A stretch of 64,000 nucleotides of DNA from Runella sp. SP2 (lineage in GTDB: Bacteria; Bacteroidota; Bacteroidia; Cytophagales; Spirosomataceae), in NCBI RefSeq assembly GCF_003711225.1, contig NZ_CP031030.1, forward strand, positions 2,852,001 through 2,916,000, written 5' to 3'. Made by a program: the position numbers and the translations under genes. Each line of letters begins with the position of its first letter. The first letter of the stretch is position 1. This document shows positions 18,013-63,745 of the stretch, in pieces. The notes beneath the pieces were generated by a model that made no database searches, had not been told where the DNA came from, and saw nothing but the letters and a program-made list of their open reading frames with translations.

Positions 18013-18174
18013 GGGTTTTGAGAAACCCTCTGCACGGTTACTCGGGTTTTGAAAAACCCTCCTCACGGTTACTTGGGTTTTGAGAAACCCTCGGCACGTT
18101 GGCACGGTGGGTCGGGTTTCTCAAAACCCGACCACTACGCCGAGTAACAGACCTCAGGGTTTCTCAAAACCCTG
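18013..18174. repeat. Array of five TGAG-loop hairpins between convergent genes
   Basis: There are three direct units of period 31, with hairpins at 18013-18028, 18044-18059 and 18075-18090. Each has GGGTTT and AAACCC arms around TGAG (TGAA in the second), and the connecting sequence CTCxxCACGGTTACTC is conserved between them. Two inverted hairpins follow at 18113-18130 and 18155-18174. The last one overlaps the end of the anti-sigma gene and supplies its TGA stop, from the loop. It is not a CRISPR array because the spacers are repeated, not unique. Related hairpins occur at 50227, 50268, 58685 and 63557-63740. Confidence 0.9.
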
Positions 18175-19693
18175 TTCGCGGCAAGCGGTATTTGGCAGAA
18201 ATAAAGAAGCCTGACGTTTGAAGTTTAATCTTCCCAAAACCCACTTCGGCCATGGGAATTTTCCAAAATGGCTCTACTTGAAGGGAAAAATTACGCCCAA
18301 TTTGTCGTTCCACACCCACCGACGCATTCAATATACCCATCCAATAATTTCCCGTTGAGCCTTCCCAGTTCATCCATTTTGGGTATGAATGCGGTGGGTA
18401 AGTATAATCATACCTTTCATTCATCATCTTGTAGCTCGATACACCCGACGATACAAACCACCGACTTCGACGTCCTTCCAAAACATCAAAACGGATATTG
18501 ATTGGAATGTCTAGTACCTTACAATTGGCCGCCACCTCGGTAGGTCTGGCTTTTTGAGAATTCCAAATTTCAGGCCATTTGTACTGTTCGCCCGTGGCGG
18601 TATAGACTTTATCACTTTTTATAACGCCCACCTGAATGCTCCAGCGGCGTGCAAAACGGTATTCTAACATCGCCCCCAATGCCAAACGGGGGTTTTTAAG
18701 CATTTCGCTCGACGAGATAAAACTCAAATCGGGTGTTGCGATTACACGGGTGCTTAGCCCTTTTTGGAAGGCAACGGGAGGCTCTACAGATTCTTTTTTC
18801 TTTACAACAGGAGGCGGAGCAGGTGGCAAATACGCTACCGTTGGCTCTGCAACAGGTACTGTAAGCAACTTCCAGTTTTTAGCCACAAGTTCATTTAATG
18901 TAACATTGAAATTTGTAGGCCCTTGAGGTTCATTGGAAGATGACTGAGGTGTTCGCTCCGCGGGATCTGTATCCTTTGACACAACCGAAACCATTGTATT
19001 CCCCTTTTTATCTTGCTTTCTTCCCAACGTAGAAACATACGATGGAGACGTCGAACTTACCTTTGCAGCCGTAACTCGTTTGTTTTCTGAATCCTTTACC
19101 CAGCGGGCCGTTTGGCTCGTTTCATCGGTTTGTTTTAAAACAGGCTCCCGCGTATTTTTAAGGGCAAACGATTTTTGGCGGGTTACACCTACTGAATTGG
19201 ACTGCTTTTTACTAGACGCAATGGACTGTTTTTTAGCTTGTTGTACTGGTGTTAACTGTTCTTTTTCTTTTTCCTCCAACGCTAGGTGCGGTTCTTCATT
19301 CAGTGCAGAGCCTTCTTCTTTCGCTGCTTCGGGGTTAACTTTTTCCGTTTCAGAGGCATTGACTTTTTCGGCTTCCTTTTGTGATTGGCTTGGGTCACTT
19401 ACCTTAGGAGCATTTCGTTGAGACTCTTTTGGCATTATTTCGATTTTCGGACAAACAAACTCCATTTCACTTGTATTAGGCCAAAACAAATAACTTCCCA
19501 AACCTAAAAGCAACACAATGCCTCCAATGACCCCTGCGCGGCGCCACCACCAAGCTCCTGGCTTTTTGTCCTCGTCGTCCAACTTACGACGCATTGCCTC
19601 CCAAGCTTTTGGATCGAATGTTGGCTCAAACTCCTCAGACGATTTTCTGAAGAGTTCGTCCAGTCTGTCATCTGGTAACTCTTGCATACTCAT
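18164..19693 (-). CDS. Candidate dual-membrane-spanning anti-sigma factor (Dma-like)
   Basis: The protein has up to 509 residues (ATG at 19693, or 19687). The layout in order is: a short cytoplasmic acidic N-terminus (DDRLDELFRKSSEEFEP) of the kind found in Bacteroidota anti-sigma factors; one membrane helix at about 52-70; a long low-complexity Lys/Glu/Ser/Thr linker (about 75-300) able to cross the periplasm; and a C-terminal domain of about 190 residues resembling an outer-membrane beta-barrel of the PorT type (LALGAMLEYRFARRWSIQVG). The gene overlaps the end of the ECF sigma gene by 26 bases, so it should bind that sigma factor. The architecture matches the Dma anti-sigma family described in Bacteroides thetaiotaomicron. 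The last five residues (PRTGF) and the stop come from an adjacent repeat hairpin. Confidence 0.7.
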   Translation of the reverse strand: MSMQELPDDRLDELFRKSSEEFEPTFDPKAWEAMRRKLDDEDKKPGAWWWRRAGVIGGIVLLLGLGSYLFWPNTSEMEFVCPKIEIMPKESQRNAPKVSDPSQSQKEAEKVNASETEKVNPEAAKEEGSALNEEPHLALEEKEKEQLTPVQQAKKQSIASSKKQSNSVGVTRQKSFALKNTREPVLKQTDETSQTARWVKDSENKRVTAAKVSSTSPSYVSTLGRKQDKKGNTMVSVVSKDTDPAERTPQSSSNEPQGPTNFNVTLNELVAKNWKLLTVPVAEPTVAYLPPAPPPVVKKKESVEPPVAFQKGLSTRVIATPDLSFISSSEMLKNPRLALGAMLEYRFARRWSIQVGVIKSDKVYTATGEQYKWPEIWNSQKARPTEVAANCKVLDIPINIRFDVLEGRRSRWFVSSGVSSYKMMNERYDYTYPPHSYPKWMNWEGSTGNYWMGILNASVGVERQIGRNFSLQVEPFWKIPMAEVGFGKIKLQTSGFFISAKYRLPRTGF

Positions 19694-20249
19694 CGTTTCC
19701 CTTTTTCAGTAACATACTTCTTAAATTTTCGCGGGCTCTGGCCAAATTAGATTTGGAAGTCCCTTCACTAATACCCAGTTTTTGGGCAATCTCTTCGTGT
19801 GAATAACCGTCGATTACGTATAAGTTAAATACGGCTCGGTACGAGGGAGTGAGTTGCTGAATTAATTCAATCAACTCATTGTATTCCAATTGGCTATACG
19901 CAGAATGACTCTCCGAAGCTGCCACCGTATTCTCAATGCTACTTACGTCATCATGGTTTTGAAATTTCACGTTTTGACGATAAAAATCCAAGGCAGTATT
20001 AATCATGACCTTTTTGAGCCACGCTTTGAAAGGCTTATCGGCGTCATACATCTGCACTTTTTGGAAAATTTTTAAAAAACCGTCGTTGACAACCTCCAGC
20101 GCCTCATCTCTATTGGGCACATAACGCATACACACTCCCATAGCGTAGCCATAAAATTGCTTGTAAAGCAATTCCTGACACTTACGGTCATTGCGCAAGC
20201 AACCCTCAAGAAGTTCCGGTAATGTTTTCAACGCACGAGAAAATAACAT
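19668..20249 (-). CDS. ECF-type RNA polymerase sigma factor
   Basis: The 193-residue protein has the sigma-70 region 2 (about 25-95; DEALEVVNDGFLKIF and the AWLKKVMINTALDFYR segment) and region 4 with a helix-turn-helix (about 130-180; YSHEEIAQKLGISEGTSKSNLARAR). Region 3 is absent, as in extracytoplasmic-function sigma factors. It would direct RNA polymerase to an envelope-stress or transport regulon. Its 3' end overlaps the anti-sigma gene, so the two are translationally coupled. The regulon cannot be read from this window. Confidence 0.93.
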   Translation of the reverse strand: MLFSRALKTLPELLEGCLRNDRKCQELLYKQFYGYAMGVCMRYVPNRDEALEVVNDGFLKIFQKVQMYDADKPFKAWLKKVMINTALDFYRQNVKFQNHDDVSSIENTVAASESHSAYSQLEYNELIELIQQLTPSYRAVFNLYVIDGYSHEEIAQKLGISEGTSKSNLARARENLRSMLLKKGNDEYARVTR

Positions 20250-20442
20250 TCAATATAGCGTTACGGAGCGAAAGTTGGAAAGGTTGCGTCCAGATTGAAA
20301 AAAACTTTTTTTTATCTATCGTCAATTTACGACAGTTTTAGGCAAATTCCCACAAAACCGTTGGATAATTTTCAATGGTTTTGTGCACTGTCTGACTAAA
20401 CTATTGATACCTTACACTGATTTTTCACAAACAGTCCTTTCT

Positions 20443-20895
20443 ATGAAGACCAGGCTATTACTACTACTATTTGTGCTCACTGGAGCTTTTACGCGGTTAC
20501 AAGCGCAAGAAGAAGCCAAAATTTTGTTTTTGACGTTTAAAATCTCCAAAGTGAAAAACGGTGAAGATTACCAAATTCAGCTTTTGGACAAAAAAATTGT
20601 GGATGGGAAAATTAAAAATGAGAAAGTTCATTCGCATACTCCCGAAAAACTGGTCTTTTCTATTCTGGATGCGCAACAGCAATTGGCCAAAAGTCTTGAA
20701 ATTGATAACCCACTGAGCTCGGCCATTGAGTCTTTTGAGCCTGACGGAACCATTCATCGGCACGTCGCTACGCAAGAATCTTCTGAGTTTATGGTTCGTT
20801 TTCAGTACGTTAGCCAAATGAAAAAACTCACCTTGCAACCCCAGAATAAACGAGCAAGGGTTCAAACTTTTTCCACCTTTAGCATGGATTTGTAA
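20443..20895 (+). CDS. Small secreted protein of unknown function, cotranscribed with the M64 peptidase
   Basis: The ATG at 20443 gives 150 residues with a signal peptide (LLLLFVLTGAFTRLQAQ). An upstream in-frame ATG at 20383 would add a polar 20-residue extension and is less likely. The mature part is about 128 residues, with Lys-rich, beta-strand-like sequence and no motif I recognise. The stop is one base before the ATG of the peptidase gene, so the two are almost certainly one operon and translationally coupled. A chaperone, inhibitor or accessory role for the peptidase is possible but only inferred from position. Confidence 0.75.
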   Translation: MKTRLLLLLFVLTGAFTRLQAQEEAKILFLTFKISKVKNGEDYQIQLLDKKIVDGKIKNEKVHSHTPEKLVFSILDAQQQLAKSLEIDNPLSSAIESFEPDGTIHRHVATQESSEFMVRFQYVSQMKKLTLQPQNKRARVQTFSTFSMDL

Positions 20896-20896
20896 A

Positions 20897-22228
20897 ATGA
20901 AAAAATACCTACTCCTATTTGGGTGGCTGGTGGGCGCTAGCCTCTCGTTTGCCCAAACGTTTCCGACTGAATCTTTGCTCAACAACGGCGACAGAAGTAA
21001 ACTGATAAATATCGTCATATTGGGCGACGGATATACAGCGGCCCAACTAGACCAATTTAAAGCCGATGCCCAAAATATCACCAACTACTTATTTTCAGTT
21101 ACCCCGTTTAAAGAATATAAGAACTACTTCAACGTCGATATTGTCAAGGTACCTTCTAATCAATCGGGTGCCAAACACCCCGCGACGGCAACCGATGTAA
21201 ACGAACCCGTCATTCCTGCCTCAAACCCAGACAATTATTTCGGTTCTACGTTTGATTTTGCCAACATTCACCGACTGTTAGTTCCAACCAAATACGCCGC
21301 TATTTCTTCGGTATTAGCCAGCAATTTCCCTGATTATGACCAAGTTTTAGTCATTGTCAACTCCACCGAATACGGTGGTTCGGGAGGCGCTTATGCCACT
21401 ACTTCCATCAATGCTAGTGCCTTTGAAATTGCGGTACATGAGTTAGGCCACTCCTTTTCAGCCCTTTCTGACGAATACTGGGCAGGAGATGTTTACGCCC
21501 GCGAATCAGCCAACATGACCCAACAAGCCAACCCTAGTTTGGTTAAATGGAAAAATTGGTATGGGCTCAACAGCGTAGGAGTTTTTCAACATGGTACAAG
21601 CGGAAACCAAGCCCTTTGGTATCGCCCCCACCAAAACTGCAAAATGCGCTTTTTGGGCGTTAATTTTTGCTCAGTTTGTCGTGAGGCCATCGTCGAACAG
21701 ATTCACAACTTGGCTAGTCCCATTACGGGTTTTAGCCCTGCCAATAGTTCCACTCTTACAGCCAATTCCAACCTTACCTTTACTTTATCCACCCTAAAAC
21801 CCGTCCCCAATACACTCGAAATCACTTGGACGCTTAACGGTAATTCGTTTGTAACCAATAGTGATACGCATCTTTTAAACACCAGCAGTCTTGTGTCAGG
21901 CAGCAATACCTTGGTGGCAAAAGTGATTGATAAAACGACCTTATCTAAATCTGACACTCACCCAACCGCCCATCAATACTTGGTTTCGTGGAATATTCAG
22001 TACACCCCCTGCCCCGATGCCATCGTAATGGCAAGTCCCACCGACAACATCCCCGCAGGAAGCACCACCAAAAAAGCCAACAAAACGGTAAACGCCACCA
22101 ATAAAATCAGTGGAAATGCGACCAACGTCATCTATCGCGCAGGACAAGCGATTACGTTAGAGCCAGGTTTCACGTCCGAAAACACAACTGTTTTTACTGC
22201 CGAAATCAAGGTAAATCCGTGCAATTAG
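20897..22228 (+). CDS. Secreted M64 (IgA peptidase-like) zinc metallopeptidase with C-terminal sorting-like domain
   Basis: The 443-residue protein has a signal peptide ending near LSFAQ (residue 20). The catalytic domain (about 30-275) carries LVIVNSTEYGGSGG and the zinc motif HELGHS at 181-186 (His181, Glu182, His185), with an acidic SDEYWAG downstream that probably contributes a metal ligand. These are features of peptidase family M64. A CKMR...FCSVC cysteine cluster near 251-262 may form disulfides. An Ig-like domain (about 285-370) follows, then a final domain (YRAGQAITLEPGF) ending NPCN, shared with the C25-like protein at 7853. The likely role is extracellular or surface-bound proteolysis. 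Confidence 0.88.
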   Translation: MKKYLLLFGWLVGASLSFAQTFPTESLLNNGDRSKLINIVILGDGYTAAQLDQFKADAQNITNYLFSVTPFKEYKNYFNVDIVKVPSNQSGAKHPATATDVNEPVIPASNPDNYFGSTFDFANIHRLLVPTKYAAISSVLASNFPDYDQVLVIVNSTEYGGSGGAYATTSINASAFEIAVHELGHSFSALSDEYWAGDVYARESANMTQQANPSLVKWKNWYGLNSVGVFQHGTSGNQALWYRPHQNCKMRFLGVNFCSVCREAIVEQIHNLASPITGFSPANSSTLTANSNLTFTLSTLKPVPNTLEITWTLNGNSFVTNSDTHLLNTSSLVSGSNTLVAKVIDKTTLSKSDTHPTAHQYLVSWNIQYTPCPDAIVMASPTDNIPAGSTTKKANKTVNATNKISGNATNVIYRAGQAITLEPGFTSENTTVFTAEIKVNPCN

Positions 22229-22230
22229 GA

Positions 22231-23982
22231 TTAAAGCCTCGGCGGGGCGGGTTTGTTTGGTGTTCCCCACGCAGTCGCCCCTTTTACTTTTACTTTGCGC
22301 TTATACACCTTATCACCGCAAGTCGCGTACAAGACATCGAAATTTTCACCCCCAAAACAAAGATTAGAAACGTCACCGTTGGGAGTCGGAATGATGGCAT
22401 TCACCCGCCCCGCTTGGTCGCACACTTGAATGCCTAAGCGCGTAGCCACGTACAAGCGGCCATCACGGTCGGTTTTCATCCCATCTGCACCCGCGTCATC
22501 GGCGGTGTCGGGCGCGTGTAGCCAGTAATATTTTTGTTTGTTGGCCAACGTACCATCGGGTAAAATTGAATAGCTATATACCCAATGAGAACGCGTATCA
22601 GACACATACAGCAATGTTTGGTCGGGCGAAAGGGCAATCCCATTGGGAAATTTTAGTCCCTCGTCCACCACCAATTTTTGTCCATTTGAACGCACCAACC
22701 ACACTTTGCTTGGCACTTTTGAGTCCGACGACGGGCTTGTTACGTAGGTATTTCCGTTGCTAGTCACCACCAAATCATTTCCCGCAAACCCTTCCGTGAT
22801 TTTTGTACGCTTTTCTACCGCATCGTACGCATTGATTACTTTGGTTGTTAAGGTAGAAGAATACATTTTTCCATCGGGGCCAAAAGCTAACCCATACGAG
22901 TTCCCCGAATTTTTGGCAAATACCACCACTTGATTATTATTACCCACTTTCCAAAGCGTAGCGGCATCGCCATCCGCAAAAAACACCTCACCTTTGGCAT
23001 TCGCGGTGGGGCCTTCGGCAAATTTATACCCTTCGCCTACCAACTGCCAGTCTTCATTGGGTAGTAAAATATCATTGAGCATGGGGTTCTTGGTTGAACC
23101 GATTTTAGGTGTTTGGGGCCATTCTTTCCATAAAAAACGCATGGCATCCGCAAAAATAGCCGTACCATGCTTGCCATTATGTGCTCCTTCGCCCCACACG
23201 TGCTGCACTTCATAACCCGAAAAAACCAAAGCCCGCTCCATCGTCTGATTGGCCATCCACCAATCGCCCGCGTAGATATTTAAGTCATTGGTGCCGTCTT
23301 GCAAAAAGATGCGTAATGGTTTGGGCTCATATTTCCGAACCAACGTCGCATAACGATCGGCGCCGCGCAAGCCCACATACGTACCAATTGCGCTAAAAAC
23401 CCGACTGAAGGCATCGGGACGTTCCCAAGCAGCCGTAAACGCACAAACGGCTCCACTACTCGACCCACCGATGGCGCGGTCGCTGCCGTTTTTCGACAGT
23501 CGAATAGCTCTTCCATCTGACGCTTTTTTTGTTTCTACTTCGGGCAGAAGTTCTTCCAGTAAAAAACGAGCGTAGGTATCGCCAAGGCCGTCGTATTCAA
23601 AACTGCGATTAAAACGATCTAAGGCTTTTTCTGGTTGTTCGGCTTTTACGCGCCCGTGCATCACAAATACCCCAATGGTAACGGGCATTGCTTTTTGGTG
23701 AATAAGGTTATCAAAAACCGTGGGCGCTTGCCACTGAACCCCGTCTTGGTTGACATAGACACAAGCAGGCTGTGAAGGAGTATATTGGGCAGGAACATAT
23801 ACCCAATACTCCCGCCAAGTTCCTGGAAAGAATTTTGAATTTTCGAACGTAAATTTAAGAATTTCCCCTTTCGGCACTCCCTCTTTGACTTTTGCATCAG
23901 GATGAACGGGGTATTCTTCGGGCACTTGGGAGTAAAGCGAAAAGCTTACGAGAAAGAGACTAGCAATCAAAAAGGCTTTCAT
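22231..23982 (-). CDS. Fusion of esterase-type alpha/beta hydrolase and SMP-30/gluconolactonase propeller
   Basis: The 583-residue protein has a signal peptide (LIASLFLVSFSLYSQ). The first half (about 30-285) is an alpha/beta hydrolase of the enterochelin-esterase/D-type family, with a nucleophile motif GGSSSG, an Asp in FLQDGTNDL and a His in WGEGAHNGKHG. The second half (about 300-570) is an SMP-30/gluconolactonase-like beta-propeller (FAEGPTANAKGEVFFAD, FPNGIALSPDQTLLYVSD). Both folds hydrolyse ester bonds, so the protein may open and process a sugar lactone or carbohydrate ester in the periplasm. The substrate is unknown. It converges tightly (2 bases) with the M64 gene. Its start codon lies within a 15-bp inverted repeat. 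Confidence 0.85.
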   Translation of the reverse strand: MKAFLIASLFLVSFSLYSQVPEEYPVHPDAKVKEGVPKGEILKFTFENSKFFPGTWREYWVYVPAQYTPSQPACVYVNQDGVQWQAPTVFDNLIHQKAMPVTIGVFVMHGRVKAEQPEKALDRFNRSFEYDGLGDTYARFLLEELLPEVETKKASDGRAIRLSKNGSDRAIGGSSSGAVCAFTAAWERPDAFSRVFSAIGTYVGLRGADRYATLVRKYEPKPLRIFLQDGTNDLNIYAGDWWMANQTMERALVFSGYEVQHVWGEGAHNGKHGTAIFADAMRFLWKEWPQTPKIGSTKNPMLNDILLPNEDWQLVGEGYKFAEGPTANAKGEVFFADGDAATLWKVGNNNQVVVFAKNSGNSYGLAFGPDGKMYSSTLTTKVINAYDAVEKRTKITEGFAGNDLVVTSNGNTYVTSPSSDSKVPSKVWLVRSNGQKLVVDEGLKFPNGIALSPDQTLLYVSDTRSHWVYSYSILPDGTLANKQKYYWLHAPDTADDAGADGMKTDRDGRLYVATRLGIQVCDQAGRVNAIIPTPNGDVSNLCFGGENFDVLYATCGDKVYKRKVKVKGATAWGTPNKPAPPRL

Positions 23983-24192: not shown

Positions 24193-25041
24193 TTATCCCC
24201 AATGTTCTTGAATCACTTCTAACAATTCGGTTTGAGCAGCGCAGCCCGCAATCACATCTCCTCCAAAAAGCCAATTTTGCCCCCCCGAGAAGTCCGTAAT
24301 TTGCCCACCTGCTTCTAAGATAAGCAATGCACCCGCGGCCATATCCCACGAATTGAGGTTATATTCATAAAACGCCTCAAAACGACCCGCCGCTACGTAC
24401 GCCAAGTCGATGGCGGCTGCTCCCATACGCCGCAAACCGTGGCAACGCTGCATGAGTGTTTCCAAAATTTTGAGGTAACGGTCTTGTTTTTCAAACTTAT
24501 AATAAGGAAAACCTGTCGCCAACAAACTATCTCCAAGCGTTGACGCTGCCGACACTTTCAGACGGGTAGCCCCCTGCCCCCCAATGGGGGAAATAGTAGT
24601 GCCTCCCCCATTGGGGGCTGGGGGGCTACTCCACGCACCACCGCCTTGCCAGCCATAAAAAAGTTCTTCTGTCCCTAAATGATAAATCACTCCAGCAATA
24701 GGAATACTATTTTGCACCAACCCCACACTTACGCAATAAACGGGCAGGCCGTGAATAAAATTGGCAGTTCCGTCCAAAGGGTCGATTACCCAGTACAATT
24801 CATTCGGGTTTGATTCTTCGCCTGCTGTGCCTTCTTCCGTAATAAACCCTGCTTCGGGTAAAATTTGTCGCAAACCTGCAACCAACATTTTTTCGGTTTC
24901 TTTGTCAACGTACGAAACGAGGTTGTTGGCAGCTTTGTATTCGGTTTGTGAACGGTCAAATTTGGCCGCTTCTTGTTTGATAAATCCTCCCGCTTGGCGG
25001 ACAATTTCTATGGTTTGTAACGTGATGTTTTCGAGATTCAT
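24193..25041 (-). CDS. Inositol monophosphatase family protein with in-frame repeat insertion
   Basis: The ATG at 25041 gives 282 residues (a TTG at 25047 is in frame). The family dephosphorylates inositol phosphates or related metabolites using Mg2+. Metal ligands are in ITEEGT (about 68-72), WVIDPLDGTANF (about 84-95; Asp87, Asp90) and NSWDMAAG near the C-terminus. Between GGGAW and LKVSAAST, where relatives usually have about five residues, there are about 25. Residues about 138-159 are encoded by a C/G-rich palindrome (24567-24628) giving SPPAPNGG. This loop lies at the surface and away from the metal site, so activity may survive. It is the last gene of a leftward cluster with selD, rsmI and the DUF4105 gene. 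Confidence 0.9.
   Translation of the reverse strand: MNLENITLQTIEIVRQAGGFIKQEAAKFDRSQTEYKAANNLVSYVDKETEKMLVAGLRQILPEAGFITEEGTAGEESNPNELYWVIDPLDGTANFIHGLPVYCVSVGLVQNSIPIAGVIYHLGTEELFYGWQGGGAWSSPPAPNGGGTTISPIGGQGATRLKVSAASTLGDSLLATGFPYYKFEKQDRYLKILETLMQRCHGLRRMGAAAIDLAYVAAGRFEAFYEYNLNSWDMAAGALLILEAGGQITDFSGGQNWLFGGDVIAGCAAQTELLEVIQEHWG
24567..24628 (-). repeat. C/G-rich palindromic element inside the inositol monophosphatase gene
   Basis: The element of about 62 bases has imperfect inverted arms of the form TAGCCCCC..CCCAATGGGGGA and its complement, around a spacer at about 24592-24602. It lies fully within the coding sequence and keeps the frame. A second copy with the same arms, length and reading frame lies in selD (27967-28028). 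Both encode SPPxPNGG in the first arm. Confidence 0.9.
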
Positions 25042-25052
25042 GTACAATGATT

Positions 25053-27053: not shown

Positions 27054-28124
27054 TTATTTCACATAAACAACTTTCTCACGTTTTTCTACCAGTTTTCCAA
27101 GGGTTTGTAGTTCAAAGCCACGTTCTTCCATCAACGCCTCAAACTCCTCTTGGGCATCTGGTTCTACGGCAATGAGCAATCCTCCACTGGTTTGAGGATC
27201 TGCCAAAATGAACTTTTGTAATTCGGACACCTCACCTATTTTATGCCCATAGCTATCCCAATTCCTAACCGTACCGCCTGGAAACGACTTTTGGGCCAAA
27301 TAATCTTCGATAAAAGGCAATTTGGGTACTTTGTCAAACTCAATTTCAGCACTCAGCCCACTTCCTTCGGCCATTTCAATCAAATGCCCTAGCAAGCCAA
27401 AACCCGTCACGTCGGTCAAGGCGGTTACGTAAGGTAACGTACCCAAAACGGCCCCGATTTGGTTGAGTTGCATCATTTGCTGAGGTGCAATATCGGCGTG
27501 TTCGTCCTTGAGAATCCCTTTTTTCTGCGCCGTTGTCAGAATACCCACTCCAAGTTTCTTGGTCAAATACAACAGACATCCTTCGGTGGCGGTATCGTTC
27601 TTTTTAAGGTTGGGGATAGCGACTTTCCCCGTCACGGCCAAACCAAAAATAGGCTCAGGGCTGTCGATACTATGCCCACCAGCCAACGGAATACCTGCTT
27701 CCGCACAAATCGACCGACTTCCTTCTATTACCTGCGCCGCCACTTCAGGCGGGAGTTTATCAATAGGCCAACCCAAAATGGCAATGGCCAAAAGCGGCAT
27801 TCCACCCATGGCATAGACATCCGAAATGGCATTGGCCGAAGCAATTCGACCAAAATCAAAGGCGTCATCAACGATGGGCATAAAAAAATCGGTGGTACTA
27901 ATAATCGCCTCCCCATTTCCTAGATCCATGACGGCGGCGTCATCCCGAGAGGAATTACCTACCAACAGCCCCCCCGCCCCCAATGGGGGAGTTAATACAG
28001 GAGCTCCCCCATTGGGGGTGGGGGGGCTTAAAATAACATCCAACACTTTTGGGGATATTTTACAGCCGCAGCCTGCTCCGTGGCTGTATTGAGTCAACTT
28101 GTACGATTTTAAGTCAGTTGTCAT
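27054..28124 (-). CDS. selD: Selenide, water dikinase with in-frame repeat insertion
   Basis: The ATG at 28124 gives 356 residues; the open frame reaches 28199 but the extra residues are not SelD-like. SelD makes selenophosphate from selenide and ATP for selenocysteine or 2-selenouridine synthesis. The glycine-rich N-terminal loop SHGAGCGCK holds Cys19 and Lys22 (equivalent to Cys17 and Lys20 of E. coli; Cys, not selenocysteine). [26 protein letters not shown] and DPQTSGGLL are conserved. Between KVLDVIL and LLVGN the usual linker is replaced by about 20 residues ([10 protein letters not shown]...PPLGAGG, residues 33-53) encoded by a palindromic repeat. No selA or selenouridine synthase gene is nearby. 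First gene of the leftward cluster. Confidence 0.95.
27967..28028 (-). repeat. C/G-rich palindromic element inside selD
   Basis: Inverted arms AGCCCCCCCGCCCCCAATGG (starting 27967) and its near-complement (ending 28028) flank a spacer at about 27992-28003. Length, arms and coding frame match the element at 24567-24628. It encodes residues 33-53 of SelD, in the linker after the catalytic Cys/Lys loop. Confidence 0.9.
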
Positions 28125-50226: not shown

Positions 50227-50289
50227 GGGTTGTGAGCAACCCTTAACACAATCAGAACAATACGTTGGTCAGGTTGTGAGCAACCTGAC
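50227..50289. repeat. Two TGAG-loop hairpins between convergent nuoM and flippase genes
   Basis: Hairpin 1 (50227-50242) has GGGTTG/CAACCC arms; hairpin 2 (50268-50289) has GTCAGGTTG/CAACCTGAC arms. Both have loop TGAG. The stems differ from those at 18013 and 58685, but the loop is the same. They lie between two 3' ends. There is no T-run, so they are not classic terminators. Confidence 0.85.
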
Positions 50290-50301
50290 TCACATATGCC
50301 C

Positions 50302-51300
50302 TCAATTCCACCATTTTAGTTTAAAAGTCCAAACCGTTCCTATCAATACAGGAAGAAGAATATTAATACACCAAAGCGTCAGCGTTACTGCTAAAATACG
50401 CGCAGGTTCGACGTCGTAAAAGCTAAAAACGTAAAGGGAAGAAGCTTCGCGAATGCCCAAATCACCCAAAAAATTGAGGGCTGGGATGAGGGTTTTGGCA
50501 AAAAAGACTAGAAAAATACCCGCTATGGCCACATCAAAAGGGAGATTTACCTCAAAAAGCCAAAGTAACAACGCAAACTGAAGGGTAAAAACGCCATAAC
50601 GCAAGATTGCCCAACGAAACGCCTGACCAATTTCGGATAATGTATATTCTGCAATGACTTTTACGTAAGGATCTACCCATCGAAACAATCGAAAGCGAAC
50701 CAAAAACTGCTCGGCTTCACCGCGTTTGGTCATCAATACCCCACCAAAAACAAGGGTCATCACCAAGGCCAGCAACAGCAGCACCTGCGGCCATTGTTGT
50801 AAAGTAGGTTGATGATATACCCAAAACCCCCAACCCAACGTACCAAAAAACAGGGACACAAAAAACTGTAATCCATTGGAAAGCAGCGCTGCTCCTACCC
50901 CCGACAGACGTTGATGACTTTGTAACGAAAGCACCCTTCCTGCTGCATCACCGACGTTGTTGGGCATTAAAAACCCCAACGCAAGTCCCGAAAGCACCCC
51001 TTGAAAGGCTTGTCCGAAGCTGATTTTTTCGATTTTTTGGGCTAAAAGTTGCCATTTACGGCTTTCGCAAGCCCAGTTGATGGGGGTCAGGAAAAGAGCG
51101 AACCCAAGGATTTTCCAATGACCTTGCTGTAAATGGAAAAGCAAAAGCCGATACACTTCCCCCAAACTTTGTCCTTTGGCCTCCACGCTGACGTACAGGT
51201 AGAGCAACATCCCCAAAAAAAGGAGCCATTTGAACACCCAAGTGATTTTTTTGAGCGAAGAAAGCCGAGAAAACCACGAAGGGCTGTTACTTTGCGTCAT
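50302..51300 (-). CDS. Flippase-like / lysylphosphatidylglycerol synthase TM-domain protein
   Basis: The 332-residue protein has about eight hydrophobic segments. It matches the lysylphosphatidylglycerol-synthetase transmembrane (UPF0104) family of flippase-like proteins: NWACESRKWQLLAQKI, FQGVLSGLALGFLMPNNVGDAAGR and FFAKTLIPALNFLGDLGIREAS. It lacks the cytoplasmic synthase domain of MprF. The likely role is lipid or glycolipid translocation or an accessory role; the substrate is unknown. Its ATG (51300-51298) overlaps the ATG of the divergent ruvC gene. A later in-frame GTG is possible as start. Confidence 0.85.
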   Translation of the reverse strand: MTQSNSPSWFSRLSSLKKITWVFKWLLFLGMLLYLYVSVEAKGQSLGEVYRLLLFHLQQGHWKILGFALFLTPINWACESRKWQLLAQKIEKISFGQAFQGVLSGLALGFLMPNNVGDAAGRVLSLQSHQRLSGVGAALLSNGLQFFVSLFFGTLGWGFWVYHQPTLQQWPQVLLLLALVMTLVFGGVLMTKRGEAEQFLVRFRLFRWVDPYVKVIAEYTLSEIGQAFRWAILRYGVFTLQFALLLWLFEVNLPFDVAIAGIFLVFFAKTLIPALNFLGDLGIREASSLYVFSFYDVEPARILAVTLTLWCINILLPVLIGTVWTFKLKWWN

Positions 51301-51895: not shown

Positions 51896-51951
51896 ACCTT
51901 CCCGAAAGTTTGAAACTTTCGGGAAGGTAGCTATTAACTTTCGGGAAGGTG
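51896..51951. repeat. Perfect hairpin with half-copy downstream of ruvC
   Basis: 51896-51928 is a perfect palindrome with 16-base arms around one central base (CCCGAAAGTTT G AAACTTTCGGG core). A single arm is repeated at 51937-51951. The centre TTTGAAA differs from the TGAG loop of other hairpins here but resembles it. It could terminate ruvC transcription, although no T-run follows. The remaining spacer to 52035 shows nothing else. Confidence 0.8.
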
Positions 51952-57971: not shown

Positions 57972-58043
57972 GTGGAACGAGTTACGCACAACTCTTTTTT
58001 GTTCAAATTCAACCATTATCAAACATTAAAATCAACAATCGCC

Positions 58044-58673
58044 ATGAATCGCAAACACATCATTTTAGCCATCGCTTTTGTAGCCTCAGCCCTTACTTCG
58101 TTCGCTCAAGACTCCGAAAACAGAGCACGAACAGGTATCCGTGGTGGACTAAACGCCTCGAATATGTACATCGACGAAGTTACCGACCGCAACCCTCGCT
58201 ACGGATTTCACGCCAGTTTATTTACCCAATTACCTTTGGTGAAAAATAAATTGTACCTCCAACCCGAAATTGGGTACAGCAACAAAGGAACAACGGCCAG
58301 ATACAACGTTCTCAATACTTTTCAAGGAGAAAATACTTTTAGCCTCGATTATGTAGAAGTTCCTGTGTTGCTAACGTATAAAATTGGCAATTTTGTTGAC
58401 TTACACGCGGGTGGTTACGGAGGCTATTTGCTCAATGCCAACACCAAAAGTAAAAGCGATGTTGGCTCCACTCAAATTGAACTTGGGAAGGGCAATTTTA
58501 ACGAAATTGACTACGGACTTTCGGCAGGTTTGAGTATTTATTTTGGCAAGTTAATGATTGGTACTCGCTACAATTATGGGCTTCGTCCAGTAGCGACCAG
58601 CGATGCCGCCAAAGTATTTATGGGTAACGCCAAAAATTCAGTGGGACAAATCAGCGTAGGTTTTACGTTCTAG
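58044..58673 (+). CDS. PorT-like outer-membrane beta-barrel protein
   Basis: The ATG at 58044 gives 209 residues with a signal peptide (LAIAFVASALTSFAQ); the frame extends to 57972 but with an unlikely leader. The mature protein has outer-membrane barrel type 2 features: GIRGGLNASNMY, LYLQPEIGYSNKG, YVEVPVLLTYKIG, DLHAGGYGGYLL and a terminal strand GQISVGFTF. It is typical of PorT/OMP_b-brl_2 proteins of Bacteroidota. No role in type IX secretion can be claimed from this alone. It is the last of three envelope genes. Confidence 0.9.
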   Translation: MNRKHIILAIAFVASALTSFAQDSENRARTGIRGGLNASNMYIDEVTDRNPRYGFHASLFTQLPLVKNKLYLQPEIGYSNKGTTARYNVLNTFQGENTFSLDYVEVPVLLTYKIGNFVDLHAGGYGGYLLNANTKSKSDVGSTQIELGKGNFNEIDYGLSAGLSIYFGKLMIGTRYNYGLRPVATSDAAKVFMGNAKNSVGQISVGFTF

Positions 58674-58684
58674 GCAATGCTGTT

Positions 58685-58773
58685 GGGGAGGATGTGAGCA
58701 TCCTCCCCACACCGCTAACATCCTCCCCACACAGCCAACATCCTCTCAGCACGGCCAACATCCTCCCATACTG
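58685..58773. repeat. TGAG-loop hairpin plus degenerate direct repeats
   Basis: 58685-58708 is a perfect 10-bp stem, GGGGAGGATG/CATCCTCCCC, with loop TGAG. It is followed by three degenerate direct repeats of about 21 bases carrying AACATCCTC (58717-58768), each matching one arm of the hairpin. It lies between the convergent barrel and antiporter genes and ends at the antiporter stop codon. Confidence 0.85.
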
Positions 58774-60345
58774 CTACGAGTACTTCAGCTTCTCTTCATC
58801 TAGGTCAATTCCGTGCAATAGTTTTCGCACAATTTCTTCGTCGATTTTATCATCGGTATTATTTTTATTTTGTAGCCAAAGTCGCTGCTGTTCCAACACA
58901 TCCAAGTAAATGCGCTTGGTTTCTTCGGTCAGTTCTTCAGGTTCTTCATGGCTTTTTTGCTCCCAAAATGCCACTTTAGTCCGTAGTATTTCATTTGTAA
59001 CAAGGTGTTTACGATAGTTTTGGTGAAAATACTGCAAAGAATGTTCGGCCATTCCCCTTTTTAGCATTGCTTCGGTTTCTTCTTCGGGCAAATAATCCCC
59101 ATAATCGGGGAGTTCCAGTTTTTTAATCAGCCACGGTAATGTAAGCCCTTGGACTACCAACGTCGTAAGAATCACCACAAACGTAATAAACAAAATAAGG
59201 TTTCGGTGGGGAAAAGGCACGCCGTTTACCTCCACAGGAATGGAAAGCGCCGCCGCCAACGACACCACGCCCCGCATTCCTGACCAAGACAACACAACGG
59301 GTGCTTTCCAACCTGGGTTGGAATCGGCTACTTGTATAAAATGACTCATTATTTTGGTCGTAACCACAGCGCCAAAAGAAGCGACAATTCGCCCAATAAT
59401 AAGCACGGCAGTAATGACCAAACCATACCCAATCGCCAGAGGTAGCGCAATTCCTTCTTGCTTGAGCCCTTCGTGGATTTCGGGCAAGTCCAAGCCAATC
59501 AGTAAAAAGACCACGCCGTTGAGCACAAAAACAAAGCTTTGCCACACATTTACCCCCCGTAAACGCGACGAGCTTGAAAGAAAAATATGTCTGCGGTTGG
59601 CCAATAACAATCCACCACTCACCACCGCCAAGACCCCCGAACTATGGACTTCTTCAGCCGCGATGTACATCACATAAGGCGTCACGAACGAAAGTACAAT
59701 GTCTATGTTGGCATCGGTAGGTAATAATTGATGGGCCTTCATAAACAACCATCCTACCGCTAATCCAATCACCGAACCACCAACAACCATCCACCCAAAA
59801 CTTAACGCGGCTTCGTGCCAAACAAACTGTCCCGTGGCGACGGTGAGCATCGCAAAACGAAAGATAATCAGCGAGGAAGCATCATTGAGTAGGCTTTCAC
59901 CCTCCATGATGGAGGACATTCGTCTTGGTAGTTTCACAAATTTTAAGATGGCGCTTGCACTTACTGCATCGGGCGGTGAAACGATTCCTCCCAACAAAAA
60001 CCCTAAGGCCAACGAAATACCAGGAATGCACCAATTGGCCACCAAAGCCACCGATAAGGCAGTTAAAAATACCACAACAAATGCAAAACTGCCCACAATT
60101 CTCCGCCAACGCCACAGTTCTTTCCACGACATCGCAAAGGCTGCATCGTACAACAACGGAGGTAGGAAAATGATAAAAATCAGTTCAGGTTTGACTTGTA
60201 TTTTTGGGATACCAGGAAAAAAACTGATGATTAAGCCTGTGATGACCAACAGCACAGGATAGGCTACTTTTATCCTGTCAGCCAGCATAATCAGCAGCAA
60301 AATGACGACAATCAGCGTGAGAAAAAAAGGAAAATGTTCAATCAT
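58774..60345 (-). CDS. Na+/H+ antiporter, CPA1 family
   Basis: The 523-residue protein has about 12 membrane segments and a cytoplasmic C-terminal tail (about 410-523). It is a CPA1/NhaP-like cation-proton antiporter. Typical segments are FLGGIVSPPDAVSASAILKF, with the conserved Asp of the ion site, EGESLLNDASSLIIFRFAML, VVLSWSGMRGVVSLAAALS and LVVQGLTLPWL. It maintains pH and Na+ homeostasis. The tail is rich in Glu and Lys. It is alone on its strand, divergent from the AraC gene. Confidence 0.95.
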   Translation of the reverse strand: MIEHFPFFLTLIVVILLLIMLADRIKVAYPVLLVITGLIISFFPGIPKIQVKPELIFIIFLPPLLYDAAFAMSWKELWRWRRIVGSFAFVVVFLTALSVALVANWCIPGISLALGFLLGGIVSPPDAVSASAILKFVKLPRRMSSIMEGESLLNDASSLIIFRFAMLTVATGQFVWHEAALSFGWMVVGGSVIGLAVGWLFMKAHQLLPTDANIDIVLSFVTPYVMYIAAEEVHSSGVLAVVSGGLLLANRRHIFLSSSSRLRGVNVWQSFVFVLNGVVFLLIGLDLPEIHEGLKQEGIALPLAIGYGLVITAVLIIGRIVASFGAVVTTKIMSHFIQVADSNPGWKAPVVLSWSGMRGVVSLAAALSIPVEVNGVPFPHRNLILFITFVVILTTLVVQGLTLPWLIKKLELPDYGDYLPEEETEAMLKRGMAEHSLQYFHQNYRKHLVTNEILRTKVAFWEQKSHEEPEELTEETKRIYLDVLEQQRLWLQNKNNTDDKIDEEIVRKLLHGIDLDEEKLKYS

Positions 60346-60483
60346 AGATGTAAGAGGTTTGTTGCTTGATGGGTAGGTGGACGTTCAAATGTACATAAAA
60401 ATTAAAATTACACCACTCATCAAATAATCGGTTGTCGGCAATGGATAAGTACTTTATTTGAAAAATTATCGCTTTAAAACGCC

Positions 60484-61386
60484 ATGGTTCATTTGTCGGA
60501 GCAAACCAAAAATCTATTGGAAGGAGTCAATTACCGCAACAATTTGCTGGTGGTTTCGTCATTGAAAGAATTTTACCATCCCATCAAATCACACGGTTTT
60601 GCCATTAAATACGTACTCAACGGAGTCGAGCATTATACCCTCAACGGGCAGGCGTATCCCGTGGGGGCGGGCAACTATTTGCTATCTAACAATACCAGCG
60701 ATGGTCACGTAGAAATAGACAAAGGCGAATTTGTGAAAGGGATTTGCATCAATATCGTACCAGAATTATTGGCCGACGTCGTAGCCAGCTGCCAGCGACC
60801 AGATACTGCTTATCCCGACGCGAATTTAGGTCATTTTTTTAGCTCACATCTTTTTTTGGAGCAACAATACTCCGCCACCAACACCCGTTTAGGCCACCTA
60901 TTACGGCAACTTCATACTGATTTTTTACAGAACGACTTATTAAATTCTCCCATTGAAAACGATTTTTTTTATACGCTTTCAGAGCTAATCGTTGCCGACC
61001 AAATACCTGTTTTTAAGCAACTTCATTCCATCCCCAGCCTTAAACCCTCCACAAAGAAAGACCTCTACCGCCGACTTCATCGGGGCAAAGAGTGCATCGA
61101 CGCGCTTTTTCAATTTCCACTAGCCATCGAAACCGTCGCTACTGAGGCTTGTCTTTCAGAGTACCATTTTTTTCGTCTTTTTAAACAAGTTTTTGGCCAA
61201 ACTCCCCACCAGTACCTCCACCAAAAACGACTCAATCATGCCGCTCAACTGCTTGGTCGTGAGCAAGCCTCGGTCACCGAAGCGGCGATTGCATCTGGCT
61301 TTGCCGACATCCATTCATTTAGCAAAGCCTTTAAAAAATACTTTGGCGTTTCCCCTACCAATTGGCTTCAAAAAGAAAGTTTCTAG
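60484..61386 (+). CDS. AraC family transcriptional regulator
   Basis: The 300-residue protein has an N-terminal cupin-like sensor domain (about 20-165; HGFAIKYVLNGVEHYTLNGQ) and a C-terminal pair of helix-turn-helices (about 200-297; CLSEYHFFRLFKQVFGQTPHQYLHQKRL, SGFADIHSFSKAFKKYFGVSP). It is probably an activator responding to a small ligand. The target is unknown, but the serine hydrolase downstream and the antiporter divergently upstream are candidates. Confidence 0.93.
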   Translation: MVHLSEQTKNLLEGVNYRNNLLVVSSLKEFYHPIKSHGFAIKYVLNGVEHYTLNGQAYPVGAGNYLLSNNTSDGHVEIDKGEFVKGICINIVPELLADVVASCQRPDTAYPDANLGHFFSSHLFLEQQYSATNTRLGHLLRQLHTDFLQNDLLNSPIENDFFYTLSELIVADQIPVFKQLHSIPSLKPSTKKDLYRRLHRGKECIDALFQFPLAIETVATEACLSEYHFFRLFKQVFGQTPHQYLHQKRLNHAAQLLGREQASVTEAAIASGFADIHSFSKAFKKYFGVSPTNWLQKESF

Positions 61387-61550
61387 CCCTAAATTTCTGC
61401 GTGCCTCTGAGTTTTTTACATCTGGGTTATTCTGGGAGTAAAATTTATTTGTTCCATAAAAAGCCGTCATTTTTACGAATTAGCAGGATTTGACAAATCG
61501 TTTCCTCAGCTTCGCCGTAGTTTTACCCCACAGTTTGAAAACACACTACG

Positions 61551-63350
61551 ATGAAGAAAACTATCCTATTTTTGACGCTTTTAGCAAGCACTGCCTTTGC
61601 CCAACAACCCACTCCCGACGCCCGTTTTGCAGGATTGGACACCCTTTTTGCCCGCGTCCTCAACGAATGGAAATGCGCAGGTTTTGCCGTGGCAGTGGTG
61701 GAAAAAGACAAAATCGTTTATGCCAAGGGCTTTGGGTACGCCGATATCGATTCCAAACGCCCCGTCACCGAACACACCCAATTTGCCGCAGGAAGTTGTA
61801 CCAAACCCTTCACCTGCGCCGCTTTAGGCTTACTACGAGCCGAAAACAAAATAGACTTTAACCATTCTGTCCGCGAATATTTGCCTCAATTGTCGTTTTA
61901 CAACGAGGAGATGAACAAAAACATCACCGTTCGCGACTTAATGTGCCACCGAACGGGTTTGCCCCGCCACGACCAAGCGTGGGCACTATTTTCCACCCAT
62001 TCCGTTGATACTTTACTCAAACGGGTTCAGTATTTAGAGCCTAATTATGGGCTGCGCGAAAAATGGCAATACAACAACTTTATGTTTGCGGCACAAGGAA
62101 AAATGGTCGAAAACCTCTCTGGGCAATCTTATCGTGCCTTTGTGAGGGAACGAATTTTTCAACCTTTGGGAATGAAGGACGTTACTTTTTCGGTCGATAG
62201 CATGACGCTCTACAACGACCGTTCGTTGTGCTATGCCGTTTCGGAAGATGACAAAATCGTACCGTTAGATTATTTCAACCTAGATGTGATGTCGGCGGTG
62301 GGAGGCATCAACACCTCCGTCAGTGAGATGGCAAAGTGGGTCATGTTGTGGGCCAACAACGGTATTTACAAAGGCAAACGCATCCTTCCTGCCGAATACG
62401 TTCGCGAAGCCATCAGCTCACAAATGGTTGTGCGTGACGCTGCTCCATCGGCCAGCAACCCGTCATTGCACTTTGAAAATTACGGTCTTGGCTGGTTTTT
62501 ATCCTCCTATCGGGGGCATTATCGGGTAGAACACGGCGGAAACATTTCGGGTTTTTCGACCAATACCTGTTTCTTTCCCACCGACGGCGTAGGCATTGTG
62601 GTTTTCTGCAACCAAGCAGTGTCGCGGGTTCCGTCCGTAGTTCGGAATATTCTCGCCGACCGAATGCTCGGTCTTCCTTATAAAGATTGGCAAAGCTACC
62701 TCTACACCTCCGATATGGCGGCTAAAAACGCTGCCAAGAGTGCCAAGAGCCAAATGGCGAGCTTGACCAAAACCAACGTCAAGCCCGCGCATCCAGCAGA
62801 TGAATACGAGGGTTACTTCCAACACAAAGGGTACGGAACGTTTGAAATTGTAAACCGTAACGACTCGCTCTTTGCCGTTTTTCCGTTACAACAATGGTAT
62901 TTACGTCCCTATGGACACGACGTTTTTGATGCTTTGCCCGTCGATAAAAGCGGAAAAGTGGCGTCCGAAGGTAGTGTTCAGCGAATTGTATTTAACCAAA
63001 ATACTGAGGCCGAAATAGCCAGTGCCTCCATCGCTTTTGAACCTGAATTGATTCATCCGCTGGAATTTACGTGGTCGCCTAAAGTCAAAAAATTACCCAA
63101 AGTTGTCCTTCAACGCTACGTAGGCGAGTATAATCTCAATGGTATGGCCATGAAAGTGGGCCTCAATGCCAACGAAATTTTGTACTTATCGCTCCCTAAC
63201 CAGCCTACCCGCGAATTAGAAGCGCTCGGTAAAGGGAAATTTCGGCTAAAGGGGTTGAACGGTTATTCGATTTCGTTCAGCCAAGATGCGAAAGAATTTT
63301 TACTAACTCAGCCCAATGGCATCTTCAAAGCCCTCAAAAAGAAAGCATAA
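61551..63350 (+). CDS. Secreted beta-lactamase-family serine hydrolase with DUF3471 domain
   Basis: The 599-residue protein has a signal peptide ending near TAFAQ (residue 18). The class C beta-lactamase-like domain (about 25-390) has SxxK as SCTK (Ser82, Lys85), the YxN motif in YNN (Tyr174, Asn176) and a HGG segment (RVEHGGNISG) in place of KTG. The C-terminal DUF3471-like domain (about 405-595) includes the YEGYFQHKGYGTFEIVN region. Such proteins are esterases or D-aminopeptidases rather than true beta-lactamases in most cases. It is followed by a tiny membrane-protein gene and a hairpin repeat. Confidence 0.92.
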   Translation: MKKTILFLTLLASTAFAQQPTPDARFAGLDTLFARVLNEWKCAGFAVAVVEKDKIVYAKGFGYADIDSKRPVTEHTQFAAGSCTKPFTCAALGLLRAENKIDFNHSVREYLPQLSFYNEEMNKNITVRDLMCHRTGLPRHDQAWALFSTHSVDTLLKRVQYLEPNYGLREKWQYNNFMFAAQGKMVENLSGQSYRAFVRERIFQPLGMKDVTFSVDSMTLYNDRSLCYAVSEDDKIVPLDYFNLDVMSAVGGINTSVSEMAKWVMLWANNGIYKGKRILPAEYVREAISSQMVVRDAAPSASNPSLHFENYGLGWFLSSYRGHYRVEHGGNISGFSTNTCFFPTDGVGIVVFCNQAVSRVPSVVRNILADRMLGLPYKDWQSYLYTSDMAAKNAAKSAKSQMASLTKTNVKPAHPADEYEGYFQHKGYGTFEIVNRNDSLFAVFPLQQWYLRPYGHDVFDALPVDKSGKVASEGSVQRIVFNQNTEAEIASASIAFEPELIHPLEFTWSPKVKKLPKVVLQRYVGEYNLNGMAMKVGLNANEILYLSLPNQPTRELEALGKGKFRLKGLNGYSISFSQDAKEFLLTQPNGIFKALKKKA

Positions 63351-63368
63351 TCTAAACGACTCACAACG

Positions 63369-63500
63369 ATGGAAACTTCTCAATTGGTAAAATCCAAACT
63401 CTTCAAAGTGTTTCTCGTGGTATTCATTGCCGCTTGCCTGTTTAAAATTTTTGGAAGTGGATATGATTTTGGACAATGGCTGTACCGTTCGACGCACTAA
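63369..63500 (+). CDS. Short membrane protein, 43 residues
   Basis: It starts with ATG at 63369, 18 bases after the hydrolase stop, and ends TAA at 63498-63500. It has one hydrophobic segment (KVFLVVFIAACLFKIFG) followed by GSGYDFGQWLYRS. Small proteins with a similar GYxFGQWL tail are familiar from Cytophagales, so it is probably real. Function unknown; probably cotranscribed with the serine hydrolase. Confidence 0.6.
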   Translation: METSQLVKSKLFKVFLVVFIAACLFKIFGSGYDFGQWLYRSTH

Positions 63501-63505
63501 CCCTG

Positions 63506-63745
63506 CCCGTGCGGGAGGATACACGTGCGGGAGGATACTTATATCCGACCCATCACGAGGTTTTGAGAAACCTCTGCGTTGGTTTTGAGAAACCAACGGC
63601 ACCAAATGTGCGGGAGGATACTTATATCCGACCCAAAGGTTTCTCAAAACCTTCAATAACGGTTCACGAGGTTTTGAGAAACCTCTGCGTTGGTTTTGAG
63701 AAACCAACGGCACCAACTGTGCGGGAGGATACTCATATCCGACCC
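63506..63745. repeat. Array of TGAG-loop hairpins in 111-base tandem units
   Basis: Two full units (about 63524-63634 and 63635-63745) repeat at a period of 111. Each holds a GAGGTTT/AAACCTC hairpin (63557-63574 in unit 1), a CGTTGGTTT/AAACCAACG hairpin (63577-63598) and, read on the other strand, a GGATA/TATCC hairpin with loop TAAG or TGAG (63727-63740 in unit 2). A lone inverted AAGGTTT/AAACCTT hairpin lies near 63637. GTGCGGGAGGATAC recurs three or more times. The 409-base stretch 63501-63909 has no gene; 63746-63909 holds nothing further that I recognise. Confidence 0.88.

Follow-up and report, generated by a model that had tools for sequence, protein, structure and literature searches.

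TGAG-Loop Hairpins with a Tag at Fixed Distance in Runella sp. SP2: A Probable Family of REP-Type Elements Served by a RAYT

A 64-kb stretch of the genome of Runella sp. SP2 (C1:2852001-2916000, referred to as the window) carries dispersed hairpins that differ in their stems and have the same four-nucleotide loop, TGAG. The hairpins of the window are members of a genome-wide family, united not by one stem sequence but by one loop and by a tag, CAC, at a fixed distance from it. I conclude that they are probably DNA elements of the repetitive extragenic palindromic (REP) type, served by the REP-associated tyrosine transposase (RAYT) of this genome, a single-strand DNA transposase of the Y1/HuH kind. 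A preliminary description of the window, made from its sequence, had named a RAYT acting elsewhere as one explanation for the hairpins and a structure at transcript ends or of the nucleoid as another. The first is supported by a RAYT gene that lies within arrays of the hairpins, by the recurrence of the association in another genus and another family, and by the co-occurrence of gene and hairpins over 222 genomes. A role at transcript ends is not supported.

Results

Excess of the TGAG Loop in the Genome

The genome (7.61 Mb, with a main contig of 7.43 Mb) was sampled as 60 evenly spaced 20-kb stretches of the main contig, 1.2 Mb outside the window. The preliminary description had proposed that TGAG loops should exceed those in a shuffled control, and they do: read on either strand (TGAG or CTCA), they close 106 of the 544 palindromes with 4-nt loops and stems of at least 6 bp in the sample, as against 1, 4 and 4 in three Markov controls. 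In a tally loop by loop, which drops loops whose end bases could pair and so comprises 447 palindromes, TGAG is found 60 times and CTCA 46 times, and the next 4-nt loop 9 times. Over the whole genome the pattern GGNTNTGAGNANCC has 552 matches (278 + 274), and the reversed pattern 7 (3 + 4). Palindromes with 3-nt loops (n = 293 in the same stretches) have standouts of their own, TTG (20) and CAA (14), in a count made without a control.

Anatomy of the Hairpins

The sampled stretches and the window together yielded 137 perfect TGAG hairpins (stem of 5 bp or more) with 73 distinct stems, and the anatomy was taken from these. A GG type accounts for 120 of them, in 104 unique contexts; of the 120 rows, one is mis-anchored at the end of a stretch. 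Chance palindromes are found among the remaining 17. The sequence CAC starts exactly 10 bases past the loop in 87 of the 120 GG-type hairpins (77 of the 104 unique contexts), and at no other offset from 3 to 30 does it appear in more than 8 of the 120, nor at any mirrored offset in more than 6. Where the tag is lacking, the hairpin is in many cases the first member of a close direct pair. The base preceding the CAC position is open (G 47, C 20, A 20 and T 17 of 104).

The inner stem can be written GG-N-T-N. Counting pairs from the loop, the 104 contexts have G-C at pair 4 in all cases and at pair 5 in 103, and T-A at pair 2 in 103. Pair 1 is T-A in 54, G-C in 40 and A-T in 9, and pair 3 is T-A in 85, A-T in 14 and G-C in 4. 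Pairs 6 to 9 vary and yet are complementary in 99, 73, 59 and 59 contexts, and pair 10 in 20. The stems, which the preliminary description took to be variable, are only partly free: pairs 2, 4 and 5 are nearly fixed. Its proposal that the fold and not the sequence is what matters is half right: the sequence is constant in the loop, in the CAC tag and in part of the inner stem.

Because the hairpins were chosen by their inner pairing, the covariation counts are inflated for the five inner pairs. An unbiased test takes all TGAG-N10-CAC sites with no selection for pairing. Among the 191 such sites the five inner pairs are complete in 89, and only 6 more have four. By the same test, spacings from 6 to 15 other than 10 give at most 9 fully paired sites, and 15 other tetramers at most 5 each. 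Copies that depart from the consensus at a single place tell how the parts are conserved: next to 82 perfect copies there are 13 with a changed loop (4 positions), 4 with a changed CAC (3 positions) and 3 with a broken inner pair (10 positions). The 14-mer GGTTTTGAGAAACC, in the same sample, shows a weaker contrast between loop and stem, with 60 perfect copies, 3 loop changes and 4 stem changes.

Hairpins of the Window

The seven TGAG-loop hairpins of the preliminary description are all present (18013, 50227, 50268, 58684, 63557, 63577 and, on the other strand, 63727), with two details corrected: the stem at 58684 is 11 bp, one more than claimed, and that at 63727(-) is only 5 bp. Six more were found, at 18075, 18110(-), 18155(-), 63636(-), 63668 and 63688, giving 13 perfect TGAG-loop hairpins with stems of at least 5 bp on either strand. 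CAC stands at +10 in eight and at +11 in one (58684), and is absent from four. Among the 38 perfect palindromes of the window with a 4-nt loop and a stem of at least 6 bp, 12 have the loop TGAG or CTCA; 30 first-order Markov shuffles of the window gave a mean of 0.1 and a maximum of 1. The hairpins and their variants (the two TAAG variants were recognized by eye) are the following:

18013..18035, plus strand: hairpin GGGTTT-TGAG-AAACCC, CAC at +10 after the loop
18044..18060, plus strand: altered unit, with loop TGAA, of the 31-bp tandem array that includes the 18013 hairpin
18075..18097, plus strand: hairpin GGGTTT-TGAG-AAACCC, CAC at +10
18107..18133, minus strand: 10-bp hairpin GGTCGGGTTT-TGAG, CAC at +10; R. 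defluvii and R. limosa have the identical hairpin
18155..18174, minus strand: 8-bp hairpin CAGGGTTT-TGAG, no CAC at +10
50227..50249, plus strand: hairpin GGGTTG-TGAG-CAACCC, CAC at +10; missing at the orthologous site of R. limosa
50268..50293, plus strand: 9-bp hairpin GTCAGGTTG-TGAG, CAC at +10; kept in three species
58684..58712, plus strand: 11-bp hairpin TGGGGAGGATG-TGAG, CAC at +11 instead of +10
63525..63546, minus strand: loop variant GGATA-TAAG-TATCC, CAC at +10 (by eye)
63557..63574, plus strand: hairpin GAGGTTT-TGAG, first of a direct pair, no CAC at +10
63577..63602, plus strand: hairpin CGTTGGTTT-TGAG, second of the direct pair, CAC at +10
63608..63629, minus strand: second copy of GGATA-TAAG-TATCC, CAC at +10 (by eye)
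63636..63653, minus strand: hairpin AAGGTTT-TGAG, no CAC at +10
63668..63685, plus strand: hairpin GAGGTTT-TGAG, in the second copy of a 111-bp tandem unit, no CAC at +10
63688..63713, plus strand: hairpin CGTTGGTTT-TGAG, CAC at +10
63719..63740, minus strand: 5-bp hairpin GGATA-TGAG-TATCC, CAC at +10

Behind the hairpin at 58684, its 3' arm recurs as a 20-bp tandem repeat (58684-58767).

A Single RAYT Gene within Arrays of the Hairpins

A search for the gene of a RAYT, as the preliminary description had advised, found one in the genome, embedded in TGAG hairpin arrays. It is the only match to PF01797 (Y1_Tnp; 26.5 bits, cut-off 23) in 7.61 Mb, and it lies 0.86 Mb from the window, at C1:3780762-3781301 (the part from ATG). 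The predicted protein (in its 180-aa reading) has the HuH motif, NHIH at 60, and the catalytic tyrosine, Tyr at 137, and it is assigned to the RAYTs by the curated family NCBIfam NF047646 (96.6 bits, cut-off 80). Arrays of TGAG hairpins on both sides make it a single-copy gene flanked by its own repeats, as expected of a RAYT. That this RAYT mobilizes some other family of hairpins, an idea raised by the translated reading frames of its locus, was rejected, as the DNA there has TGAG hairpins on both sides. R. defluvii (G001) and R. limosa (G004), congeners that are among the nearest relatives, have loci with which this one can be aligned. The R. defluvii protein is 96% identical, and its AlphaFold model (pLDDT 80.7) has as its best match in the PDB, by fold search, 4er8 (E 5.8e-8), a RAYT with a bound REP hairpin. 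A search of the PDB by sequence alone gave one weak match with the RAYT, again 4er8 (E 0.55).

RAYTs and Hairpins in Related Genomes

Across 59 genomes, that of Runella sp. SP2 included, counts of the GGNTNTGAGNANCC pattern range from background to 654. A hairpin model (R1) finds matches in 13 of the 59, 3 of which have 1 to 4 matches. The model search scores a capped number of candidates per genome (127 for the 59 genomes, 34 in the survey that follows), which makes its counts lower bounds in hairpin-rich genomes, and therefore only presence or absence was used. A survey of 222 genomes of the family found 34 with hairpins (E <= 1e-4), 13 with this RAYT (E <= 1e-25) and 12 with both, so that hairpins are present in 12 of 13 genomes with this RAYT versus 22 of 209 without (p = 3e-10, uncorrected for kinship).

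The hairpins themselves recur beside related RAYTs. T[GA]AG hairpins with CAC at +10 flank the RAYTs of G016, G207, G230 and G218, all from another genus, whose proteins are 53, 56, 55 and 51% identical to that of Runella sp. SP2. In G056, from another family, two T[GA]AG hairpins with CAC at +10, their stems lacking GG, lie on one side of a 48%-identical RAYT. A tree of 32 RAYT sequences (two fragments were dropped as too short, and some loci were not entered) places 11 rows on one side of a branch with support 100/99. Of these, 8 have flanking hairpins that obey the rule T[GA]AG-N10-CAC, 2 have the loop alone and 1 has neither. Among the 21 other rows a scan for TGAG found no flanks that obey the rule.

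A general rule, GTG-N10-loop, for all RAYTs of the Bacteroidota was also considered and rejected: distant RAYTs (20-42% identity) have other loops, and none of those examined has TGAG-N10-CAC hairpins beside it. The locus L062 fits GTG-N10 by eye, with loop TCT/TCC, and others do not. RAYTs of other branches (loci L048-L066) are flanked by palindromes with recurrent loops of their own, TGC/TGT, TCT/TCC/AGA and CTGTG-x-CACAG, hinting that each branch of RAYTs has its own loop.

Position Relative to Genes

Gene positions were taken from a home-made gene caller run on 1.404 Mb, which contains 45 hairpin clusters and 586 intergenic gaps. Clusters are intergenic in 37 of 45 cases: 16 lie in convergent gaps, 20 in tandem gaps and 1 in a divergent gap, compared to 98, 372 and 116 of all gaps. 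The enrichment in convergent gaps (Fisher p = 2.5e-4) and the depletion in divergent gaps (Fisher p = 0.008) agree with the location at 3' ends that the preliminary description noticed in the window and made a condition of its reading, as does the finding that 19 of the 20 clusters in tandem gaps begin no more than 97 bases from the 3' end of the upstream gene. Three sites in the window (18013, 50227 and 58684) had been placed between convergent genes, and the open reading frames agree; Pfam backs the flanking genes, although the match of the minus-strand gene 18164-19693 is below cut-off. The minus-strand gene 50302-51300, supported by Pfam, was overlooked by the caller, and convergent sites are therefore, if anything, under-counted.

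All three relative orientations are found between neighboring hairpins, which are direct in 28 pairs and have their tags outward in 26 and facing in 22. Among hairpins in tandem gaps, 28 have TGAG on the coding strand and 34 on the opposite one. A link to replichore polarity or the lagging strand was rejected, as TGAG and CTCA are mixed on both replichores in the table of 60 stretches. TTTT follows within 8 bases of the stem in 6 of 120 cases, so the T run after the stem, on the transcript strand, that would mark an intrinsic terminator is generally absent. The rarity of TTTT and the mixed orientation argue against intrinsic terminators. A search of the window against Rfam gave 0 matches at gathering score, and a search for tRNAs also 0.

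Change between Species and Decay

The window and its surroundings (~96-117 kb) were compared with the syntenic regions of two species, R. defluvii and R. limosa, at 88-94% identity. At the 58684 site, where this genome has the loop TGAG, R. defluvii has TAAG and R. limosa CTTA, the reverse complement of TAAG. GAGGTTT-TGAG hairpins number 2 in the 63557 array of this genome, against 4 in both R. defluvii and R. limosa. At a site upstream of the window two species have the stem TATCAGATT/AATCTGATA, where R. limosa has TTTCAGATT/AATCTGAAA; by eye, and if the sites are homologous, this appears to be a paired double change. From these comparisons it seems that arrays shift in number, that stems shift in step and that new sites are rare.

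Decay was expressed as the ratio of one-off to perfect copies of GGTTTTGAGAAACC, after subtracting the background given by the reversed pattern. In three genomes with an intact RAYT the ratio is 0.15, 0.19 and 0.18. In five Runella genomes without one, where the gene is broken (G003, G008) or no close gene is found (G010, G011, G012), it is 0.88, 0.95, 0.50, 1.38 and 0.37. Pooled, there are 118 one-off to 670 perfect copies with an intact RAYT vs 86 to 115 without (p = 5e-16). The 23 one-off copies of G012 comprise 15 stem breaks and 8 loop changes.

Other Repeats in the Window

A second dispersed palindrome, ACCTTCCCGAAAGTTTGAAACTTTCGGGAAGGT, lies with a half copy at 51896-51951 and is found in many places in R. 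defluvii and R. limosa. As a 14-mer it occurs 15 times in 1.264 Mb of the Runella sp. SP2 genome, which has an array of it near C1:4972886-4973414. The R. limosa orthologue of 51924-51936 has ~4 kb of extra DNA adjoining the palindrome. A direct tandem duplication of 214 bp, 99% identical, at 3618-4045 holds an inverted repeat with ACCCGCAGA arms, and a C/G-rich inverted repeat, AGCCCCC...GGGGGCT, is present in two copies ~3.4 kb apart (24566-24629 and 27967-28028).

Discussion

How a RAYT Might Serve the Hairpins

Read on the CTCA strand, the commonest element consists of GTG, ten bases ending in the 5' arm of the stem, the loop CTCA and the complementary arm. The RAYT would bind this site, when it is single-stranded and folded, by its loop and by the GTG close to the hairpin's foot. 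The stem would then serve as a spacer of set length, and many stem sequences would be tolerated provided that they pair. Cleavage next to the hairpins would allow units to be copied, lost or tandemly amplified, with survival mainly of copies that lie past 3' ends or between convergent genes. That the RAYT binds and cleaves the hairpins, with loop and GTG as its contacts, is suggested by analogy with the RAYTs treated in PMC8266576. The hairpin anatomy, the position of the hairpins beside one clade of RAYTs, their co-occurrence with the gene over genomes and the greater decay of GGTTTTGAGAAACC where no intact gene was found are all consistent with such an enzyme.

A more specific proposal, which I regard as possible but doubtful, is that one clade of Bacteroidota RAYTs reads a code of loop and ruler: a T[GA]AG loop together with a GTG at a distance of precisely ten bases, with the stem as a spacer tolerant of sequence. 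One enzyme could then maintain an open-ended diversity of stems. The activity of the RAYT, perhaps through copying of one arm, would keep drifting stems paired, and loss of the gene would lead to decay of the pairing.

Several observations weigh against a REP family maintained by a RAYT. CAC at +10 is missing from 27 of the 104 unique hairpins, and the hairpins have no strand bias with respect to the replichores in the 60 sampled stretches. The five clusters of this genome in the synteny comparison are all common to the three species, one of them (58684) in altered form, and a single hairpin (50227, missing from R. limosa) gives the sole clean case of gain or loss; movement to new sites is therefore rare or old. 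Relatives do not all conform: the RAYTs of G239 and G226, from the same genus as G016, are flanked by the loop without the tag, that of G165 has an in-frame TAG and flanking loops CCC and ACG, and the broken or partial RAYTs of G003 and G008 likewise have no flanking hairpin that obeys the rule. In 400-kb samples, G056 follows the rule only beside its RAYT gene, apart from one weak site, and G016 has 31 TGAG-N10-CAC sites of which 2 are fully paired, both at the RAYT. (The T[GA]AG set of the G016 sample is small, with 3 TGAG and 5 TAAG sites, loosely paired ones included.) At the threshold used, 22 of the 34 hairpin genomes lack a close RAYT, three Runella among them, and the correlation over genomes ignores kinship. 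As to decay, the genomes with an intact RAYT are close relatives, and arrays inflate their count of perfect copies; the GGTTTTGAGAAACC core may differ by species; some one-off copies, such as those with a TAAG loop, may be regular variants elsewhere; and G002, with a partial RAYT and a ratio of 0.34, was omitted from the pooled test. Finally, the evidence is purely computational, and the biochemistry of the RAYT on the hairpins is a prediction.

Some of the same observations would suit a different account, in which the hairpins are chromosomal sites adopted by the host, for binding of gyrase, an IHF-like protein or another nucleoid protein, and are under selection as such, with the RAYT as no more than their historic source. 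Positions common to three species, near-perfect stems and hairpin genomes without a close RAYT all fit, and the text of PMC6006769, in the part available, has the REPs of other bacteria binding such proteins. Sites of this kind would not be expected to vary from background to hundreds of copies inside one genus, nor to decay more where no RAYT is intact, and I consider the account improbable. Less probable still is that the hairpins are structures that terminate transcription or protect 3' ends, with TGAG fixed as a good RNA tetraloop. Enrichment behind 3' ends and in convergent gaps and depletion in divergent gaps are what this predicts, but it is at odds with the scarcity of TTTT after the stems, the nearly even orientation in tandem gaps, a constant DNA tag at +10, the lack of an Rfam match at gathering score in the window and the link to a clade of DNA transposases. 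Least probable is that the palindromes are passive, their perfection maintained without an enzyme by template switching during replication, and that the RAYT is among them by chance, which would account for the rarity of inner-stem breaks (3 over ten positions vs 13 loop changes over four, and 82 perfect copies) and for the flipped loop at the 58684 site, but leaves the single loop, the +10 tag and the association with a RAYT unexplained.

Relation to Known Systems

REP-type elements served by a RAYT, the reading I prefer, can be compared with several described systems. Like REPs, the hairpins are short, intergenic palindromes in high copy number (552 pattern sites, and the intergenic clusters counted above). 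In classical REPs the hairpin foot carries GTAG or GTGG; here GTG stands at a fixed distance and the fourth base is open. With a tag other than the canonical GT[AG]G, the hairpins are not classical REPs. They look like a Bacteroidota variant of known REP repeats.

One close parallel is subclass 2.6 (group 5 of Bertels), whose palindromes, from Bacteroidetes and without GT[AG]G, are called "atypical", with "weaker secondary structure", in the available part of PMC6006769. Similarities to that account are a Bacteroidota RAYT with NHIH and Y-x-H-N-N-P, and flanking palindromes that lack GT[AG]G and have copies elsewhere in the genome. Of the motifs given there for the subclass, NH[LIV]H, WQ and YIH[QN]NP, the first is matched by NHIH, and the others have the counterparts WD and YMHNNP. 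Subclass 2.6 is likely the home of the system, judging by motifs, two of three of which are off by a letter. In contrast to the accounts in the text of PMC6006769, whose Table S1 may hold such a rule implicitly, the Runella hairpins have a rule of loop, tag and spacing.

REPs of group 3, or subclass 2.5 (Stenotrophomonas, Marinomonas), have GTAG and a defined stem, in contrast to the GTG with open fourth base, the TGAG/CTCA loop and the dozens of stems of Runella. In that group, according to the portion of PMC8266576 consulted, mismatches in the stem lower cleavage and some loop bases are decisive, and the available part of PMC6006769 gives foot plus stem a length within a narrow range of 10-13 nt. 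The E. coli system of group 2 REPs and TnpA-REP (4er8) resembles that of Runella in providing the best match in protein fold and in its intergenic clusters; its REPs have GTAG and a bulge in the stem, whereas in Runella the loop is the constant part. The loop of E. coli REPs is given only a structural role in that same portion of PMC8266576. CGTC-tagged palindromes, reported from Bacteroidetes among others, are short and tagged like the Runella hairpins but have another tag, and in the part of PMC3733652 available none adjoins a transposase gene. I found nothing in the open-access papers searched that links Runella with REP elements or states a TGAG loop rule, although a prior description in subscription papers is possible.

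Significance

To judge from the available part of PMC6006769, palindromes that adjoin the RAYTs of Bacteroidetes have been put to one side as atypical. If the rule holds, they have a clear code, a loop and a tag at fixed distance from it, and only the stem is free to vary. It would provide a testable substrate for an uncharacterized branch of RAYTs and would explain how one enzyme can serve dozens of stem sequences. Repeats with divergent stems, which comparison of sequences would split, can be detected as one family by their loop and geometry. Genomes in which the gene is intact, broken or not found offer natural material for measuring how such repeats decay.

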